50,195 nt of DNA. It comes from an uncultured Ruminobacter sp. (GTDB taxonomy: Bacteria; Pseudomonadota; Gammaproteobacteria; Enterobacterales; Succinivibrionaceae). The position numbers and the translations under genes are program-made. Under the pieces are notes generated by a model. The model saw nothing but the letters and a program-made list of their open reading frames with translations, made no database searches and was not told where the DNA came from. The stretch lies in NCBI GenBank assembly GCA_902764345.1, contig CACWVT010000012.1:1-50195 (forward strand), given 5' to 3'. This document shows positions 40,993-50,069 of the stretch, piece after piece (within the stretch, counting starts at the first letter, position 1; every line of letters starts with the position of its first letter).

Positions 40993-42441
40993 ATGTTTTT
41001 CAGATTTTTATCAATGCAAGTTGAAATAAATAATCGTTCCCTTTTTATAATTCTGCCGATACTCTTCTGCACTGTGGCTCAGCTAACCGGTGCCGGCTTT
41101 CTTTTGCCTGACGGAAACGATCATTTTCTCACTGCGGTAATTCCGTGCCTTTTCGCTCTCGGCCTTGCGCTGGTCATCCCGTCAAGCAACCGTTCATGGC
41201 TTGTAATCGGCACGTGCTCATCCTTTTTTCTGATATACAAACTGCTGCATCTTCTTCAGCCGGACTATGCCTACTCGTCACTTGTGGCGGCATTTCTCGG
41301 ACCTCTGACCACGGCACTCCTGCACCCGCGCAGCCATAAAAAAATCACCCTGACGGCAAAAATACTCAACAGAACGATAACCTTCATCATCCTGATGATT
41401 CTGAGCTGCGTGCTGTGCTTTCTGTCGTCTTCGCTGTATGAGAACATTCAGACAGCCATAAACAACCTGTACATGAGTCACATCTATAACGACAGTTACT
41501 CATTCATTTACGGTATTATCTACCAGTTCTGCGAAACGTTCGGTTTCGGTAACTTTATTCTGGAAATCAGACACCTTATTGTCAATACCGGCGTATCTCA
41601 GAGTTTCTACAGCACCACAACGGCAATTTTCACCACCGGTCTCCCGGGAATTTTCCTGGCGATTACCCTGGCACAGAACAAGCGAAAGAAATTCCATTAT
41701 CTGATTCTTACGCTGCTGGCGGTGGCAAGTTCCACCACCGGCTACAGCATCAGCATGCTTCTCATATGCCTGCTGTGGATGCAGCCTTCCCTTTTCGGGC
41801 TCTATCTCATCAACTGCGTTTTCTATTACATCATCGGCTACCAGATAGCCTTTGAGCCGCAGACCATAAACAAGGCTTTCTATAACCCGAATCTCGATCT
41901 CGGTCAGATAAACCTCGGAGACATGAGATTCATCCTGTACTCCCTGTTTATCTTCCTGTGCAACTTCATGACCTCAACCGCAGTACTGAAGGAAAAGCAG
42001 CGCTATACCCAGAAGACGGGTCAGATTATCCGCGTAAAACCGCTCATCATTGACATACTGTCCGATCTCGGTACCCAGGACTACAGTCTGAAATCAATCA
42101 CCATAATCAAGGCTTTGGGCGGTTTTGACAACATCATTCATGCCACCAGACACGATGCAACCGTTACTTTTACGGTACGGGATCTTTATGTCATAGACAT
42201 GGACACGCTTAACAGCAACGGTTCCGCAACCAGATACACGGACGGTCTCAGCAAGTGTGTCTCATACACCATGCGTGACAATACCAATGACATATACTCC
42301 AACATGTTAAGCATTGCCACGCACAGTCTGACTGACATTACCAGTGAATACCACATGATTGAACCGTACTCAATTGAAAAAAGCAAATTCAAGAATCTGT
42401 ATACCTGTAAGGAAGAAATAAATGCCATGGATTCAAATTAA
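40993..42441 (+). CDS. Degenerate PTS EIIC-EIIB-like membrane protein
   Basis: This 482-residue protein resembles a glucose/maltose-family PTS permease with its catalytic residues replaced. The hydrophobic part has [33 protein letters not shown] and [20 protein letters not shown], in the order expected for EIIC. The GITEP-type motif is replaced by TGYSISML (about 249-256). Near the C-terminus [11 protein letters not shown]...[11 protein letters not shown] (about 371-402) matches EIIB. The site of the phosphorylated Cys aligns with His387, and the TRLR that follows is lost. Transport by phosphorylation is therefore unlikely, and a sensor role is possible. The frame is fully open. Its last 20 bp overlap prmA, so the two are coupled. 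The start is uncertain (40993 or 41014). Confidence 0.65.
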
Positions 42442-43297
42442 ACTGGGAACTACCGATAAGAAGGCGGAAAAAATCGCCGGTATGTTATCCGGTTTCGGAG
42501 CTGCGAGCGTTACCTATATGGATACCATCGATAATCCAGTATACGAACCTCTTCCGGGAGAAACCAAGCTGTGGACAAATACCACCGTAATCGGCCTTTT
42601 TGATGCCGATACGGATACCGGACGCATTATCGACTTTTTCTACGAGCACTTCGGTGACAAGATTACCTACAAGGTTGAACAGCTTGAAGACAAGGACTGG
42701 GTACGTGAATGGATGGATAACTTCCATCCGATCAAATGCGGTGAACGTCTGTGGATCTGCCCGAGCTGGTGCGACATTCCGGATCCTTCCGCCGTCAACG
42801 TCATGCTTGATCCGGGGCTTGCATTCGGTACGGGTACCCACCCTACCACCTTCCTGTGCCTGTCATGGCTCGACAGTCTGGATCTTAAGGGTAAAAACAT
42901 CATCGACTTCGGCTGCGGTTCGGGAATCCTGGCAGTGAGCGCCCTTAAGCTGGGAGCATCATGCGCCACCGGCATAGACATAGATCCTCAGGCAATTGAA
43001 GCCAGCACCGAAAACGCCTCAAGAAACGGCGTAAGCGACAGACTCAAGCTGTATCTGCCTCAGGAACAGCCTGAAAACCTTAAGGCTGATTTTCTGGTAG
43101 CCAACATTCTTGCCGGTCCTTTAAGAGAGCTTGCCCCTGCCATAGCATCAATGGTGAACCCGGGCGGACTGTTTGCCATCAGCGGCATTATTGAAAACCA
43201 GTGTCAGGAACTGATGGAGATCTACGGCCAGTGGTTTGATCTCGACGAACCGGTATTCAGGGATGAATGGTGCCGCATCACCGGCAGAAAAAAATAA
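42422..43297 (+). CDS. prmA: Ribosomal protein L11 methyltransferase
   Basis: PrmA trimethylates ribosomal protein L11. The N-terminal substrate-binding domain begins [11 protein letters not shown]. The SAM site is [20 protein letters not shown], with ANILAGPL as the later motif. It has 291 residues (E. coli has 293). AAGGAA stands before the ATG inside the previous gene. In E. coli-like genomes prmA is followed by dusB-fis; here fis follows directly. Confidence 0.97.
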
Positions 43298-43488: not shown

Positions 43489-43785
43489 ATGTTAAATATC
43501 AATAATAAAATGAATCCTCAGAGAACCATGACTTCAGAAGAAGTTCAGGCTGTACCACAGAAACCTTTATATGAATCAGTTTTAACTTCAGTAAACAACT
43601 TCCTTAACAATCCGGCAAATGCAGATACCACTGACCTTTATGAAATCGTGTTAAGTGAAGTTGAACGTCCGCTTCTTGACAGAGTAATGCAGTTCGTACA
43701 CGGCAACCAGACCAAGGCTGCAAAGATGATGGGCATCAACCGCGGTACCCTTCGCAAGAAGCTCAAGAAGTACAGCTTAAGCTAA
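43489..43785 (+). CDS. fis: DNA-binding protein Fis
   Basis: Fis is a nucleoid protein and growth-phase regulator of rRNA and other promoters. The C-terminal helix-turn-helix [23 protein letters not shown] is nearly identical to that of E. coli. It has 98 residues, the same as in E. coli. It has its own 190-bp upstream region with a 7-bp inverted repeat (CTGCAGA...TCTGCAG, about 43423-43460). Confidence 0.98.
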
Positions 43786-43815: not shown

Positions 43816-43853
43816 AGACCCGTTATCGTTTAAACGATAACGGGTCTTCTTTT
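43816..43853 (+). terminator. Terminator of fis
   Basis: A perfect 32-nt palindrome (arms 43816-43831 and 43832-43847, core GTTTAAAC) is followed by TCTTTTAT. A second, weaker GCCGGA/TCCGGC hairpin with ATTTTTAAT follows at about 43867-43908. Confidence 0.88.
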
Positions 43854-43930: not shown

Positions 43931-43936
43931 TATAAT
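43931..43936 (+). promoter_or_regulatory. -10 element of the BrxD-like gene
   Basis: A consensus TATAAT lies 39 bp before the ATG and after the fis terminators, so the BrxD-like/helicase pair probably has its own promoter. No clear -35 is seen at 17 bp, which might indicate the need for an activator. Confidence 0.55.
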
Positions 43937-43975: not shown

Positions 43976-45331
43976 ATGGCAGTAAAACTGAGACCTCGCG
44001 AAAGAGAATCCATTATTCAGTCATTACGTTCAGGCGTAACTCCCCGTACCGGCCTGCAGTTCATTCAGGTAGGCAGAGTAAAAGAAATTGAATCAATGAT
44101 TCATGATCTTGATCTGGTTGCAAACGAAGGCAGCACATTCAAACTCGTTATCGGCGACTTTGGTGCCGGTAAAAGCTTCTTTCTTCAGCTCGTACGCAGT
44201 ATTGCTCATGAAAAAGGTCTGGTAACCATGAACGCCGATCTGTCTCCCGACAGACGTCTTCAGTCATCCAAAGGTCAGGCTCTCAATCTCTATCAGGAAT
44301 TAAGCAGAAACATGTCAACCAGGGCCAAGCCTGACGGCAACGCCCTGAACTCCGTTGTGGAAAAATTCATAACCCTGGCCAGAACGGAAGCCGAGGAAAC
44401 CGGCACGGAATGTACCGAGGTCATCAAAAAACTTTTAAAGCCTCTTAACGACATGGTTGGCGGTTTTGACTTTACACTGGTAATCATGTCCTACTGGAAA
44501 GGCTTCAATGAAGGACGCAATTACCTCATCGACTGTGCCAACAAATGGCTCCGCGGTGAATATCACAGCCGCATCGAAGCCCGTCAGGATCTCGGTGTCA
44601 GAACCATAATTGATGATTCCTCAGTTTATGATTTCTACAAGCTATTAAGCGTATTTGTTCAGATTGCCGGATATCGCGGACTGCTTATTCTTATGGATGA
44701 GATGGTAAACCTCTATAAAATCCACAATCTCCGCTCCCGCGAAGCCAATTACGAACAGATTCTGCGCATCATCAATGACTGTCTTCAGGGTAACGTGAGA
44801 GGTCTGGGTTTTGTCATGGGCGGAACCGTGGACTTTCTCGAAGATCCTCGCAAGGGGCTTTACAGTTATGAGGCCCTGCATTCAAGACTTGCCGCCAACG
44901 TATTTGCCAAGGCTGCGGGCGTCAATGATCTCAGCGGTCCGGTAATGAGACTCAACAATCTGACTCCGGAAGAGCTCTATGTTCTTCTGCACAACATCCG
45001 CAACATCTTTGCCTACTACAACGAAGACAGCTATCTGGTACCGGATGAGGCCTTGTCAAAATTCCTGAGCCACTGTTCTTCCCGTATCGGCGAAGCATAT
45101 TTCAAAACTCCGAGAAACACCATAAAGGCATTTGTGGATCTGCTGTCCATTCTGGAACAGAATCCGGAGCTCAAATGGGCCGATCTTCTGAAGGACATTA
45201 ACATTAACCGCGAGGAAGAGGACTCATTCATGAGTTTCGATGACGGTACTGGCTCCGCAGACGGCAATACCGACGGCAGCGGTTCCGGTAACGATGACGA
45301 TGAAGACGAACTGGTAAGTTTCAGACTCTGA
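43976..45331 (+). CDS. DUF2791/BrxD-like P-loop ATPase
   Basis: This is an AAA-like ATPase of the family that includes BrxD of BREX type 2. The N-terminal LRPRERESIIQSLRSGVTPR is followed by Walker A GDFGAGKS (60-67), Walker B LLILMDEM (about 236-243), a sensor-like GFVMGGT (278-284) and a possible arginine finger LHSRL (301-305). The last 35 residues are acidic and low-complexity. It has 451 residues. The helicase follows after 83 bp. Pairing of DUF2791 ATPases with Lhr-like helicases is known in BREX type 2 and in TerB-linked clusters. Here neither PglX/PglZ nor TerB is seen. Confidence 0.8.
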   Translation: MAVKLRPRERESIIQSLRSGVTPRTGLQFIQVGRVKEIESMIHDLDLVANEGSTFKLVIGDFGAGKSFFLQLVRSIAHEKGLVTMNADLSPDRRLQSSKGQALNLYQELSRNMSTRAKPDGNALNSVVEKFITLARTEAEETGTECTEVIKKLLKPLNDMVGGFDFTLVIMSYWKGFNEGRNYLIDCANKWLRGEYHSRIEARQDLGVRTIIDDSSVYDFYKLLSVFVQIAGYRGLLILMDEMVNLYKIHNLRSREANYEQILRIINDCLQGNVRGLGFVMGGTVDFLEDPRKGLYSYEALHSRLAANVFAKAAGVNDLSGPVMRLNNLTPEELYVLLHNIRNIFAYYNEDSYLVPDEALSKFLSHCSSRIGEAYFKTPRNTIKAFVDLLSILEQNPELKWADLLKDININREEEDSFMSFDDGTGSADGNTDGSGSGNDDDEDELVSFRL

Positions 45332-45341
45332 TAACATAAAG

Positions 45342-45385
45342 GGAAAGGCGTTCCGCATTTCCGGCAGGTACGCTTTCCCCTCTCA
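45342..45385 (+). terminator. Hairpin between the ATPase and helicase genes
   Basis: GGGAAAGGCG and CGCTTTCCC form a stem with a central loop, then a short pyrimidine tract (CTCTC) without a T-run. It may attenuate helicase expression relative to the ATPase, or act only as an RNA-stabilising structure. Confidence 0.35.
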
Positions 45386-45414
45386 CAATTGAAACGGCAA
45401 AGGGCATTGACGTT

Positions 45415-47688
45415 ATGACTCAGAAATCAAATTCAGAGATGCTTCATCCCCTCATAATAAGGTATCTGCATCATCTGGGGTGGAAGCAGCTTAATGAAAT
45501 ACAGGAACAGTCCATTCCCCTTATTCTTGAAAACAAATCTGACGTGATCATCAGTGCGGCCACGGCAAGCGGTAAAACGGAAGCCGCTTTTCTGCCGGTA
45601 TGCACCTCAATTCTCAACAATAATCCTTCAGGAATAGCCGCCATATACATCAGCCCGCTGAAGGCCCTCATCAATGACCAGTTTAAACGAATCGAGGCCA
45701 TGGGGGATTTTGTGGGCATCAAGGTAACTCCGTGGCACGGAGACATAAACACCCACGTTAAGGCCAAAACCATTCAGGAGCCGTCCGGCATTCTGCTTAT
45801 AACACCGGAATCACTTGAATCCCTTCTGATAAACTACTCCACATGGTACCGTAAATATCTTAAGGATTTAAGATACATCATTATCGATGAGTTTCATGCC
45901 TTTATCGGCGTGGAGAGAGGTTATCAGCTGCTGAGTCAGATGCACAGGCTGGAAATGGTTCTTAAAAAGCGGATTACCCGCATAGCACTGAGCGCCACCC
46001 TCAACAACATTGAATCTGCGGGCCGCTGGCTGCGTTCCGCTCCGAACTCCAGACCGCACATTGTTGAAAGCGGAACGGGTAATAAAAAGCTGCTCCTGCA
46101 GCTGCGCGGGTACGACCGCATGACCGACGGTTCTGACCGGGATTCCTCCGGCAGGCCTTTCCGCTACGATGCCGTGGCGGCCGACCTTTTCAAACTGCTC
46201 CGCGGAACCACAAATCTGATTTTTGCAAACAGCCGTGGAAAGACTGAGTATCTGGCAACGATCATGGACAGGATATCCACGGACAACAATCTGCCGGTAG
46301 AATTCTTTCCTCACCACAGTTCACTGTCTAAGGATCTCAGGGAAAGACTTGAGAACCGCCTTAAATCGGCAAACCTGCCAACCACGGCAATCTGTACGCA
46401 GACCCTGGAACTGGGCATTGACATAGGTGACGTGGTTTCTATAGCGCAGGTTGACGCTCCGTCTTCGGTTGCAGGGCTGCGCCAGAGAATAGGACGCTCC
46501 GGACGAAGGGACAGGGCTGCGATACTGCGTCTTTTCATATCCGAACTGAGTCCCTATTCAGATACCTCTCACCCTCTTGAAACCAGACTGAGGGATGAAA
46601 CGTTTCTGTCAACCGCCCTGCTGGAACTCATGCTTAACAACTGGTATGAACCGCCGGCAACACACGAATACGCCATGTCCACTCTGATTCAGCAGATTCT
46701 GAGTGTAATCTCCGAAACCGGAAGCATCAAGGCTCTCAGCCTGTGGAAGCTGCTGTGCCAGACGGGACCGTTCTCACTGATTACCCCGAAGATATTTGCC
46801 ATGATCCTGAAATCCCTCGGTGAAAATGACCTTATCACGCAGATGCGGGACGGAGACCTTATTCTGGGGCTTACCGGGGAAAAGGTAGTTTCAAAATTCA
46901 GCTTCTACAGTTCCTTTAAGGTTCAGGAGGAATATACCATCGATTTTAACGGAGCCAACATAGGCACCGTTCCCCTGAATCAGCCTCTGAGTCTCGGGGA
47001 TTCATTCCTTTTTGCCGGTAAGGGCTGGCAGGTTATCTTCTTCAACAGTGAAAAACGCCAGATATCCGTCAAGCCTTATAAGGACAAGGCCAACCCGATT
47101 GTAATGGACGGAAGACCAAGCAGAATTCATGACGGCATACGTGAAAAGATGTATGAACTGTACTGCGGTAACGGCATTCCGGCCTATCTCAACAAAACGG
47201 CAGCCAGACATTTTCTGGAAGGCCGTGAGCTGTTCCGGGAACTGGGGCTTAAAGACAATAAATACATCATGGGTATGGACGGACTTTATATCTTCCCGTG
47301 GAGAGGAGATAAGATTATGAACACCATAGTGCAGATCCTCAAGCACTACAGGATTCAGGCCAAAAAGATCAGCAGCTACATTCTGCTCCCGGGACTCTCA
47401 ACCGTTACATACAAACAGGTGGTTAAAACCATACTGGAGGCTCCGAGACTCAGTGAGGAGGAGCTTGCGGCTAAAATCAGCAACCTTGAATACGACAAGT
47501 ATGACAAGTACCTCAGCAAGGATCTGAAGTGTCTGCAGTACGGCTATCGTAACTTTGACATAGACGGGGCAATGAGTTTCTTCGAAACCGCCCTTACCGC
47601 CAAAACTCCGTTTAACCCTGCAAATAACGCAGCCTACAACATCAGCAGTGACACGTCACAATCCTTCGAGCATCTGACTACGGCGTGA
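45415..47688 (+). CDS. Lhr/BrxHI-like superfamily 2 helicase
   Basis: This is a DEAD/DEAH-type helicase of the Lhr group. The visible motifs are a Q-like NEIQEQSIP, motif I AATASGKTE (48-56), Ia ISPLKALINDQ, motif II DEFH (158-161), III SAT (193-195), V LELGIDIGD, and VI QRIGRSGR (357-364). The C-terminal 390 residues are a helicase-associated region of the Lhr/BrxHI kind with no nuclease motif that I can see. It has 757 residues, much shorter than full Lhr (about 1500). With the preceding ATPase it forms a two-gene unit ended by a terminator. The role is inferred to be DNA or RNA remodelling in genome defence or stress. Confidence 0.82.
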   Translation: MTQKSNSEMLHPLIIRYLHHLGWKQLNEIQEQSIPLILENKSDVIISAATASGKTEAAFLPVCTSILNNNPSGIAAIYISPLKALINDQFKRIEAMGDFVGIKVTPWHGDINTHVKAKTIQEPSGILLITPESLESLLINYSTWYRKYLKDLRYIIIDEFHAFIGVERGYQLLSQMHRLEMVLKKRITRIALSATLNNIESAGRWLRSAPNSRPHIVESGTGNKKLLLQLRGYDRMTDGSDRDSSGRPFRYDAVAADLFKLLRGTTNLIFANSRGKTEYLATIMDRISTDNNLPVEFFPHHSSLSKDLRERLENRLKSANLPTTAICTQTLELGIDIGDVVSIAQVDAPSSVAGLRQRIGRSGRRDRAAILRLFISELSPYSDTSHPLETRLRDETFLSTALLELMLNNWYEPPATHEYAMSTLIQQILSVISETGSIKALSLWKLLCQTGPFSLITPKIFAMILKSLGENDLITQMRDGDLILGLTGEKVVSKFSFYSSFKVQEEYTIDFNGANIGTVPLNQPLSLGDSFLFAGKGWQVIFFNSEKRQISVKPYKDKANPIVMDGRPSRIHDGIREKMYELYCGNGIPAYLNKTAARHFLEGRELFRELGLKDNKYIMGMDGLYIFPWRGDKIMNTIVQILKHYRIQAKKISSYILLPGLSTVTYKQVVKTILEAPRLSEEELAAKISNLEYDKYDKYLSKDLKCLQYGYRNFDIDGAMSFFETALTAKTPFNPANNAAYNISSDTSQSFEHLTTA

Positions 47689-47750
47689 TTCTCCACGTCC
47701 GGGTTACCGGAAAAATCACACTTCGATTCAGGAACACAACGAACATAAAG

Positions 47751-47793
47751 AAAGGACAAAAGCCGTTACGACCTTTGTCCTTTATTCTTTCCC
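47751..47793. terminator. Bidirectional terminator between the helicase gene and pgpA
   Basis: AAAGGACAAA (47751-47760) and TTTGTCCTTT (47774-47783) pair, with a T-rich flank on each strand. It separates the two convergent units. Confidence 0.75.
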
Positions 47794-47842
47794 GTGACGT
47801 ATATCTGCTCCGCAACATGAACCGGGAGCTATACAACCACGG

Positions 47843-48388
47843 CTAGAGTGTACTCATCATCGGTATAAATACCACATACTGTAAGGACATGATAACCAGC
47901 ATGGAATATATGCCGGTTATAACGTCATCCAGGGCAACGCATACACCTGCCGGCAGATGCCTGAACATCAGGGATATAGGCCACGGCTTCAGCATGTCAA
48001 CAAACCTGAAGGTGAAAAAGGCAATGATGACGTAATACCACTGAGTCAGACAGAAACATGTCACCAGCATACCCACGAAATCATCAAACACGATTCTGTG
48101 CTTGTTTGACATGCCTATAAGATTAAGCATGGAGGTACAGATGTAAACTGATGCCGGTATCATGAACATCAGCACGGCAAGCTTCAGATACCACGGACAG
48201 AAGCTTATAAAAACAATGCAGAGCGGAATGGATGCAAGACAGGTAAACGTTCCGGGACGAGGAGTCTTTAAACTGATCCCGAAAGCAGTTCCCAGCAAAT
48301 GAATAGGATTGGATAGATTTATGTAACTAAGCTTTTCAGGATCAGACCTATACTCTTTATCTGAAGGCTGATTAGAATTGTCAGTCAT
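47843..48388 (-). CDS. pgpA: Phosphatidylglycerophosphatase A
   Basis: PgpA removes phosphate from phosphatidylglycerophosphate in the inner membrane. The motifs GTAFGISLKTPRPGTFTCLASIPL, RIVFDDFVGM and FRFVDMLKPWPI...ALDDVITG match the family. Four hydrophobic segments are visible. The ATG at 48388 with GGAG 5-6 bases upstream gives 181 residues; an upstream frame to 48439 runs through a terminator. It lies between the helicase and the WYL regulator and is probably unrelated to them. Confidence 0.92.
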   Translation of the reverse strand: MTDNSNQPSDKEYRSDPEKLSYINLSNPIHLLGTAFGISLKTPRPGTFTCLASIPLCIVFISFCPWYLKLAVLMFMIPASVYICTSMLNLIGMSNKHRIVFDDFVGMLVTCFCLTQWYYVIIAFFTFRFVDMLKPWPISLMFRHLPAGVCVALDDVITGIYSMLVIMSLQYVVFIPMMSTL

Positions 48389-48407
48389 ATCTGCTCCATA
48401 AAAATGC

Positions 48408-48436
48408 ACAAAACAAAACCGCACAAACGTGCGGTT
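48408..48436 (-). terminator. Terminator of the WYL regulator gene
   Basis: Arms AACCGCAC (48417-48424) and GTGCGGTT (48429-48436) with an AAAC loop are followed on the - strand by TTGTTTTGTG. It stands about 30 bp before the pgpA start. Confidence 0.75.
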
Positions 48437-48490
48437 CATTGTATCATAAATATCAGCTTACATACTAAATATGTGAACCCGGATCAGAAA

Positions 48491-49420
48491 TTACATATTC
48501 AGCAGAACAAATATCTCGTTCTTATTCTTAAGCACAATCTGGTTATTATCGGCTTCATTATCATCAGGACTCAGACGGAGAGTTCTTAAGGTATAGAACA
48601 GCAGAGCCTGACGGCACTTGTACACAACCTCGCCGTTTTCCATACCGTAATCGAGCTCAATGGCCTTTCTCTGGCTTTCTGAGAGGTTAGGATTTGGAAT
48701 GATGTGAAGAGATACCACGAAATTCCATCTCATGTCTTCGTTAGGATCAATGTTTGAAACATCAATCTTACCTACTGAAAGAATACGGGAAAGAACAAAG
48801 TCCCTGAAATCATGCTTTTCATGACAGTATGCGCGAACATGCCATCTGATACCGTCAAAACCGAGTGCATGAGGTGAAATTACTCTGCTTGCAGGATCGA
48901 TTCTGCTCATGGACTGGTAAGTGATGCGGAGGGAGCACTTGTTTAAAATACAGTAAACAATGGTTGAAAGGATTTCAAAATCCACACTGCGCTTTGGCGG
49001 TACAAAGCAGGCTACGTTAGGAGTCTGAAGGAGGTAGTTACTGGTATCGTGAATAATGCCCTGCGCATTCATGTAAAGGTCATTAAGATAGGAGGTTGCA
49101 CTACAGATTGAATATAAAGGTCTGTACTTTGCAGTCTTAACATAAACCTTTTGATGACGATCGTACTCAAGATTATGAGGAGCCATTTCAGTATACTTGG
49201 CAAGGTCCAGAGAAGACTGAGGAATTGAGATACCGAAGAATTCAACCAGGTCAGATCTGTTTATGTGTCCACTCCAGCATAAACGGTAATCAATGAATTC
49301 CAATCTACGTTCCTGATTCCATTTATTGTTTCCTGGCTTGGCAATTGCCGGCTTCTTCAGAGCTGCGGCCATCCCCTTGGAAGTTCTAGCAGATCTACCA
49401 TTAGCATTAACTGTGTTCAT
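48491..49420 (-). CDS. BrxR/CapW-like WYL-domain transcriptional regulator
   Basis: The protein has an N-terminal winged helix (RLEFIDYRLCWSGHINRSDL, FGISIPQSSLDLAKY), a WYL domain (ISPHALGFDGIRWHVRAYCHE, FRDFVLSRILSVG) and a C-terminal WCX-like part. The two cited blocks are typical of the BrxR/CapW group, dimeric regulators that repress phage-defence operons such as BREX and CBASS and that sense a ligand through WYL. It has 309 residues from the ATG at 49420; a GTG seven codons upstream is possible. It lies 1.8 kb from the BrxD/BrxHI-like pair, on the other strand. That it controls this pair is inference. Confidence 0.85.
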   Translation of the reverse strand: MNTVNANGRSARTSKGMAAALKKPAIAKPGNNKWNQERRLEFIDYRLCWSGHINRSDLVEFFGISIPQSSLDLAKYTEMAPHNLEYDRHQKVYVKTAKYRPLYSICSATSYLNDLYMNAQGIIHDTSNYLLQTPNVACFVPPKRSVDFEILSTIVYCILNKCSLRITYQSMSRIDPASRVISPHALGFDGIRWHVRAYCHEKHDFRDFVLSRILSVGKIDVSNIDPNEDMRWNFVVSLHIIPNPNLSESQRKAIELDYGMENGEVVYKCRQALLFYTLRTLRLSPDDNEADNNQIVLKNKNEIFVLLNM

Positions 49421-50069
49421 AGTATTTTCCGTTATATTCACTGAGCGTAATTAATGGCTACATAAGTAGCTTAAATTAACTAAAAATAATAAATAATAAT
49501 TAGTAAAATAAAATTTATTAATATAAATATAGTTCCTGCTATTATTGATCATTTAGCAAGACTTTTGCAAACAAAAAAAACATTTTGTGTCGACTAAAAA
49601 CAAAAATAAGGTTATTAAACCCCATCACAATAAATCATAAATTAGCTTATAAAACATGCTATCTTCAAATAAATGATATATCAGCATCAAATAATTTTAT
49701 ACTTAGATATCATGAACCCTATGCGTATTTATAAATTTATAAAATATATTATCACGATCTTATATTGAGTTTGATCGGCAAAAATTTTTAAGAGGACATT
49801 ATTGGCAGGAATGATGATGGTGTCCCTTGTATATAATTATTTTATAGCCCCGAATAATTCGCGGTTTAAACGGATGGATATACGGCAAAACCCTCTTAAG
49901 ATGCGTAATTAAAGACAGGTAACCAAAAGACATCTCAAATATCAGGTCACGCGTTGAAGAGGCAATGAGAACCGATTACGGCGTGAATAAGGTTATGTTA
50001 TGACGGCAGAGGAAATGATCCGTAAAAGGAATATTTATAAATAAAACTTCATTTCCCCAAAAACGAAAA
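49421..50069. other. AT-rich gene-free region upstream of the WYL regulator
   Basis: About 49440-49800 is extremely AT-rich, must contain the WYL gene promoter on the - strand, and holds no ORF. The remainder, to the tRNA-Asp terminator, has the decayed ORF at 49872-50044. No clear att-type direct repeat of the tRNA 3' end is seen inside the window. Confidence 0.45.
49872..50044 (+). pseudogene. Decayed ORF fragment, possibly DUF1697-like
   Basis: With a stop at 49920-49922 and a frame change near 50000, the conceptual translation includes RVEEAMRTDYGVNKVML and then MTAEEMIRKRN. This amphipathic pattern recalls the middle of DUF1697 proteins (helix, F/YG-x-V, T-x-EE). No start or intact frame is present. 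The family is a weak guess from memory; that it is a broken coding sequence is somewhat better supported. Confidence 0.3.

Follow-up and report, generated by a model that had tools for sequence, protein, structure and literature searches.

Introduction

The canonical Shango anti-phage system combines a TerB-like protein, SngA, with an ATPase and a helicase, and its representative in Pseudomonas aeruginosa PA14 restricts phages (PMC10250203, in the part available); such systems are located in variable islands or hotspots (PMC10250203 and PMC11096173, in the parts available). The accessible text of PMC12278908 places the Shango helicase SngC together with BrxHI, DruE and DpdJ in a defence clade that is potentially distinct. 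Here we consider a stretch of 50,195 nucleotides from an uncultured Ruminobacter sp. of the family Succinivibrionaceae (contig CACWVT010000012.1 of assembly GCA_902764345.1; hereafter the window), which encodes an ATPase and a helicase in tandem. An earlier note, made from the sequence alone, had taken them for a stand-alone BrxD and BrxHI pair built from parts of the bacteriophage exclusion (BREX) system. Our profile comparisons instead identify the two as SngB and SngC, and a relative of SngA is encoded at a second locus of the same genome. We found no literature on Shango in Succinivibrionaceae; a rumen survey lists the system, and its available text contains neither 'Succinivibrio' nor 'Ruminobacter' (PMC13356809). 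In the portions of the Shango literature at hand we found neither a split into two loci nor a published mechanism.

A SngB-SngC-like pair in Ruminobacter

The two genes of the pair are as follows:

43976..45331, + strand: SngB-like AAA+ ATPase (DUF2791/PF10923) of 451 residues, with Walker A GDFGAGKS and Walker B LILMDE
45415..47688, + strand: SngC-like Lhr-type superfamily 2 helicase of 757 residues, with the motifs ATASGKTE, IIDEFH and QRIGRSGR

With the PADLOC models the ATPase scored 551 bits as SngB versus 156 bits as BrxD, and the helicase 758 bits as SngC versus 389 bits as BrxHI. The match of the ATPase to the Pfam family BrxC_BrxD (PF10923), which had been proposed as a check, was recovered at 478 bits, and the helicase carries the Pfam DEAD and Helicase_C domains, with no nuclease domain detected in it. 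The ATPase missed the NCBIfam BrxD equivalog (152.9 bits versus a cut-off of 350). PglZ, noted earlier as missing from the window, is likewise absent above the Pfam cut-off from the genome, which is about 92% complete (a single match of 18.8 bits lies below the cut-off). Because the SngB and SngC scores are far better, the BrxD cut-off is missed and no PglZ passes its cut-off, we rejected BREX membership; on their profile scores, the ATPase and helicase are SngB and SngC, two thirds of a Shango system, rather than BREX parts. Thus, of the earlier claim that three proteins of BREX-associated families lie within 5.5 kb, the third being a WYL-domain regulator, the superfamily-level assignments stand and the attribution to BREX does not. 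The SngB of the window is 97% identical to that of a Ruminobacter sp. and 93% identical to that of R. amylophilus DSM 1361.

A SngA-like protein at a second locus

Neither SngA nor a TerB protein was found among the genes neighbouring the pair in the window, which were those examined. A search of the whole genome with the SngA model returned a single match at E <= 1 (contig C42, 84.9 bits, model positions 329-524 of 528), in a protein of about 1,093 residues (L040:6902-10183) encoded on a contig other than that of SngB and SngC. Its C-terminus matches TerB_C (70.9 bits; cut-off 26.3), and the protein has no other Pfam or PADLOC match. When a profile of 29 family members was compared with two canonical SngA proteins, 163 C-terminal columns corresponding to the TerB_C region aligned with 98.3% probability. 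The proposed survey of the genome for TerB thus recovered TerB-family proteins, one of them SngA-like, and the idea of a two-component module devoid of a TerB protein gives way to one with a SngA-type TerB_C protein encoded elsewhere. Other TerB-like matches, one of them over the cut-off, cluster at G000:C37 11181-13822 (L001, L006-L008), apart from the SngA-like gene.

Full-length SngA-like frames in the family range from 1,027 to 2,198 residues. At four Shango loci outside the family (L110, L112-L114), the open reading frame (ORF) abutting SngB has only 182-228 residues and a C-terminal end of apparently the same kind. These short ORFs suggest that it is TerB_C that remains constant in SngA.

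Distribution, synteny and phylogeny

We surveyed 56 Succinivibrionaceae genomes, 41 of good quality. SngB occurs in 48 of them (36 of the 41), spanning 12 genera, and is lacking in one genome with SngC at a contig start (G063) and in all seven genomes of genera g5 and g11. A family profile built from 29 genomes detects a SngA-like protein in 46/56 genomes and in all 12 SngB-positive genera (43/56 by the PADLOC SngA model); it misses the seven g5 and g11 genomes, which thus have neither SngB nor a SngA-like protein, and G070, G071 and G073. In contrast, few genomes of the class beyond this family carry SngB, with matches at E <= 1e-60 in only 6 of 368 other Gammaproteobacteria, whereas within one clade almost all genomes have it. 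By tblastn, 690 of 72,556 plasmid records matched the SngB of the window, 452 of these being from Klebsiella.

In the window the pair lies downstream of two genes that we named from sequence alone:

42422..43297, + strand: prmA, the conserved anchor upstream of SngB and SngC
43489..43785, + strand: fis, the upstream neighbour of SngB

Among 45 family pieces of this locus, SngB is followed by SngC in 44, and the remaining piece (G063) has SngC alone. Upstream of SngB and on the same strand, prmA is found in 34/34 pieces carrying both, at a distance of 48 to 5,793 bases; 10 of the 44 pieces end before prmA is reached, and the corresponding genomes have their SngA-like match on a different contig. 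A fis-homologous stretch is seen in 8/45 pieces, all from genera g1, g6, g7 and g9. Hence presence of the pair in its relatives at this locus, which the earlier note had listed as speaking against its proposal, is largely what we observe, the pair being core in most of the family.

The second locus was compared at 43 sngA loci, two further fragments from G012 being left out. The gene xseA is found on 27 of these pieces, from 11 genera (PF02601 checked for three members); it is convergent with sngA within 250 bases in 17, convergent further off in 4 and otherwise arranged in 6. One genome, G003, has the order xseA-SngA-ycjX, of which the Ruminobacter genome under study retains the ycjX side. 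The two loci are separated by 1.4 Mb in G065, a genome of one contig, and by 0.9 Mb on a single contig of G011. Of 21 loci opened from outside the family, 19 have SngA abutting SngB (11/13 from a search for related loci, 2/2 from plasmids and 6/6 gammaproteobacterial); in the exceptions, SngB either reaches the contig end with no SngA seen (L116) or is truncated (L117). A contiguous sngA-sngB-sngC operon is found neither in this genome nor in G065, and no SngA was found between prmA and SngB in the gaps examined.

We also considered a SngA hidden in the large gaps between prmA and SngB, and rejected it. Five such proteins of genus g2 were methyltransferase-like when scanned, mostly below Pfam cut-offs, and a profile of eight g2 gap proteins revealed no SngA. 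The SngA-like proteins of G005, G065, G066 and G078 are located away from the gaps of genera g3 and g8, whose ORFs (L061, L164-L166) were listed without profile scanning. The g2 protein evolves fast, has about 760-1,150 residues and weakly resembles methyltransferases; it lies between prmA and SngB (L047, L048, L050, L052, L059, L169, L170) or, in L276, between prmA and SngC. In genus g5, which belongs to the sister group without SngB and SngC, the slot after prmA-fis holds a large ORF in 3/5 genomes (L270, L272, L273). Two of these (L270:366-5576 and L273:304-5778) are DUF4011/MTES_1575 helicase-nucleases that match PADLOC PDC-S37 with 975 and 990 bits, and the N-terminus of the third (L272:7405-11001), itself not scanned, is similar to them, a possible hint that defence genes can be housed in this slot.

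In trees with 12 outside sequences, the family SngB and SngC proteins are each monophyletic (Shimodaira-Hasegawa support 0.994 and 0.999), and these single clades therefore fit one acquisition. The SngB frames are open, without internal stops, in the 48 genomes, that of G077 spanning two contigs; SngC is split into two frames in G008. This last genome also has a second, distant SngB (L066:9584-10906; 45% identity) that falls outside the family clade, with no recognisable SngC alongside and a weak match to the SngA model nearby (E 0.0048).

Selection and evolutionary rates

Three comparisons within Ruminobacter gave ratios of nonsynonymous to synonymous substitution rates (dN/dS) of 0.041-0.074 for SngB, 0.026-0.097 for SngC, 0.10-0.26 for SngA, 0.017-0.074 for the CapW homologue encoded near the pair (see below) and 0 to 0.16 for six flanking genes, with most dS values exceeding 1, near saturation, in two of the three. 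Tree lengths across 15 genomes were 16.4 for SngA, 7.8 for recJ, 6.5 for SngC, 5.8 for CapW, 4.6 for prmA, 3.8 for a hexokinase-like gene and 3.2 for SngB; by this measure, SngA changes at about five times the rate of SngB and twice that of RecJ. The canonical Shango proteins follow the same order of speed, A > C > B, with identities of 0.42, 0.59 and 0.80 between Pseudoalteromonas and Moraxella.

Rate covariation was highest for SngA and SngC among 21 gene pairs (partial r = 0.73), followed by SngB and SngC (0.61). SngA gave values of -0.15 to 0.01 with prmA, recJ, the hexokinase-like gene and CapW, and 0.27 with SngB. With control genes as the reference, the SngA-SngC value was 0.77, again the highest, and a second set of 14 genomes that included rpoB gave 0.61 in one setting, where the pair ranked first, and 0.67 in the other setting. 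These correlations lend weak support to a partnership of SngA with SngB and SngC.

Weighing the origin and role of the proposed split system

We favour, with moderate confidence, the reading that the pair is the SngB-SngC of a Shango system with SngA at a second chromosomal locus, which was acquired once, split and then inherited vertically as core genes. The identities of SngB and SngC, the SngA relative, both syntenies, the single clades and purifying selection are all observed. For the clade with Ruminobacter and Succinimonas, a single acquisition would be the simplest course, followed by a split that left sngBC after prmA and sngA beside xseA. A number of points weigh against this reading. 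Homology to SngA is established for TerB_C only: TerB_N and TerB, present in the two canonical proteins, were undetected in five family proteins scanned, in one of which TerB_C itself falls marginally under the cut-off, and what is seen of the protein in G015, G016 and G021 is confined to N-terminal parts. No SngA-like protein was found in 3 of the 48 SngB-positive genomes (G070, G071 and G073; completeness 89, 69 and 89%), and 16 of the 43 SngA pieces, including most from g8 and that of the Ruminobacter studied here, lack xseA. The nearest outside group differs between the two trees, being gammaproteobacterial for SngB and of Bacteroidales type for SngC under midpoint rooting. Some covariation values also run the other way: SngB with recJ gave 0.59-0.74; in one setting of the second set, prmA with SngA, SngB and SngC gave 0.69-0.71, exceeding the 0.67 of SngA-SngC; and SngB-SngC, expected as a positive pair, reached only 0.15 and 0.44 in that set. 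Further, the CapW homologue, which shows no sign of partnership, has the same presence pattern as the Sng genes. In the rpoB tree, g5 and g11 form a clade (support 100) that is sister to the SngB-positive clade (100), such that the shared pattern needs just one event, a gain or a loss; since the tree reduces it to this, the presence pattern cannot alone prove interaction, and we rejected it as independent proof of partnership. This tree comprises 27 of 30 intended genomes, including 3/5 from g5 and 2/2 from g11 (G002 and G070 had no rpoB match and the partial sequence of G030 was left out), and the placement of G016, whose extreme branch is probably due to a wrong ORF, was disregarded. Core retention at housekeeping loci is itself unusual for a defence system, and we found no phage assay of these genes in the literature.

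Several rival readings were considered. A domesticated genome-maintenance module, in which SngB and SngC, with or without SngA, do housekeeping work on DNA (e.g., at stalled forks or R-loops), would explain the fixation in the whole clade and the location beside genes of DNA metabolism. We consider it rather unlikely, even though core status, synteny, housekeeping-like dN/dS, the fold of SngC, which resembles the DNA helicase Lhr, and xseA near sngA in 11 genera are in its favour; the speed of SngA and its wide range of lengths are unlike those of a typical housekeeping protein, and there is no sign of a replacement of RecBCD. The latter idea is unsupported because matches to the RecB model occur in 56/56 family genomes, although related helicases match this model too and its cut-off is passed in only 7 of the 56. 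A decaying remnant of Shango that has lost SngA seems highly improbable. The non-adjacency of SngA, set against its adjacency in the outside loci, would suit it, but the open SngB frames, the preserved helicase motifs, the retention in 12 genera and a dN/dS of 0.03-0.10 in Ruminobacter do not, with the split SngC of G008 and the SngB of G077 over two contigs as exceptions; this constraint likewise contradicts, for the pair, the 'remnant' half of the domesticated remnant that the earlier note had offered. Equally improbable is a BREX-derived module of stand-alone BrxD and BrxHI, for which the membership of both proteins in the wider BrxC/BrxD and BrxHI superfamilies can be cited and against which the profile scores and the genome without PglZ over the cut-off stand. 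Returning to Shango acquired once and then split, a bolder form of that reading, which we raise as a tentative possibility, is that the ancestor of most Succinivibrionaceae took up a mobile anti-phage system on a single occasion, after which its genes were divided between two sites, next to xseA and prmA, and became fixed in the core chromosome, perhaps taking on new work in DNA maintenance. If true, the family would offer an example of an immune system domesticated by bacteria, and the sister clade, which lacks the system, would serve as a natural control. Immunity is favoured by how fast SngA evolves and by the homology with an antiviral system; domestication would also fit the fixation, the synteny and the strong constraint on SngB and SngC.

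Structural predictions and a proposed mechanism

The predicted model of SngC has a predicted local distance difference test score (pLDDT) of 81.8, and its fold matches that of Lhr (5v9x; template modelling (TM) score 0.71, E 2.8e-30), in line with a predicted Lhr-type helicase. The AlphaFold2 model of SngB, of moderate quality (pLDDT 73.7), gave weak matches to AAA+ structures, Cdc6/Orc1 first and with NLR and BrxC structures among them, at TM scores to the query of at most about 0.4 in the matches listed; by sequence, no solved relative of SngB was found at E below 0.08.

In the mechanism that we propose, the three Sng products would still work together, SngA partnering SngB and SngC in trans with a division of labour and an antiviral role. 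The conserved C-terminal TerB_C of SngA might serve as a coupling module and its long, fast-changing N-terminal part as the recognition or effector part. SngB, as a Cdc6/Orc-like AAA+ protein, could be an ATP-driven loader or switch, and SngC, as an Lhr-type helicase, would translocate on and remodel the recognised DNA. Together they would presumably interfere with replicating phage or with foreign DNA of other kinds.

The CapW/BrxR-type regulator and the surroundings of the pair

All ORFs reported in the earlier note are intact and lie where it placed them. The remaining features around the pair are:

43816..43847, + strand: terminator-like stem 3' of fis, between fis and SngB (from a stem scan)
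43931..43936, + strand: TATAAT, a -10-like element 5' of SngB, between the fis stem and SngB (from sequence)
47843..48439, - strand: pgpA (PF04608), separating SngC from the regulator
48491..49441, - strand: CapW/BrxR-family WYL regulator with a GTG start; an in-frame ATG corresponds to the start at 49420 given earlier

The regulator has the WYL domain PF13280 (Pfam), and its nearest solved relatives are CapW (7tb6; 4.7e-71 over 39-309) and BrxR (7t8k; 1.3e-44 over 46-290), bearing out the identity suggested for it. A CapW homologue occurs in 45/56 family genomes and, like the Sng genes, is absent from g5 and g11; its proximity to SngB and SngC is limited to genera g1, g6, g7 and g9. At the loci read from other genera, it stands beside apparent transporters and other genes (30 loci listed, neighbours judged by eye). 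The upstream regions of capW, sngB and sngA share no convincing operator motif, only AT-rich or isolated 11-mers being common to them. A search of eight capW upstream regions for perfect repeats found one, AT-rich with 7-base arms, in G002 only; repeats are given for 193/347 BrxR-family homologues in the available part of PMC9122601. The rates of CapW covary with those of SngA, SngB and SngC at r -0.10, 0.06 and -0.38.

A role as dedicated regulator of the Shango locus is therefore doubtful at best for this protein, being unsupported by motifs, by its neighbours in other genera and by rate covariation. The proximity in four genera and the same presence pattern in the family speak for such a role, as does the co-localisation of 48% of BrxR-family homologues with known defence systems (PMC9122601, in the part available); the transporter-like neighbours elsewhere and the intervening pgpA speak against it. 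The earlier caution that pgpA leaves the link to the pair unproven was thus well placed, and the CapW homologue is probably an independent conserved regulator.

The pair had also been credited with its own -10 element and terminator. As to the former, the TATAAT is absent from the output of a promoter scan but recurs upstream of SngB in three congeners (G001, G002 and G003; compared by eye); the terminator is unconfirmed, the stem at 47751-47783 being listed in the direction of pgpA only. The stem scan of the region yielded 12 terminator-like sites versus 6.1 expected by shuffling. On the other side, an apparently membrane-rich ORF of 482 residues at 40993-42441 overlaps prmA by 20 bases and is unmatched in Pfam, PADLOC and NCBIfam at E 0.001; its homologues precede prmA in several genera and in g5. 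Separately, RpoB frames are about 1,450-1,550 residues long in SngB-positive genera versus about 1,346-1,396 in g5, g11 and outgroups (loci L241-L267), which suggests, from these lengths, an insertion in the SngB-positive clade.

Comparison with known systems

The arrangement described here raises the question of whether an immune system has been kept by the family or converted to housekeeping machinery. Since its genes occupy two loci, what SngA does can be examined separately from SngB and SngC. Detection tools that require adjacent genes would probably miss a Shango split in this way.

With BREX, the pair shares the ATPase and helicase superfamilies of BrxD and BrxHI; it differs in that its proteins score far below their Shango scores with the BREX models and in that the genome is without PglZ over the cut-off. 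With the DNA repair helicases Lhr and MrfA, SngC shares its fold, as judged from the TM score to Lhr; unlike them, it is encoded with an AAA+ partner, and its best model is SngC. The closest likeness is to the Shango of the PA14 and E. coli type, with which the family genes have in common the SngB and SngC profile matches, a SngA relative with TerB_C and the order of evolutionary speed. They differ from it in that the family SngA is unlinked, longer than the two canonical proteins and without detected TerB_N or TerB, and in that the genes are core at two housekeeping loci rather than part of a variable island, and their antiviral role is a putative one.

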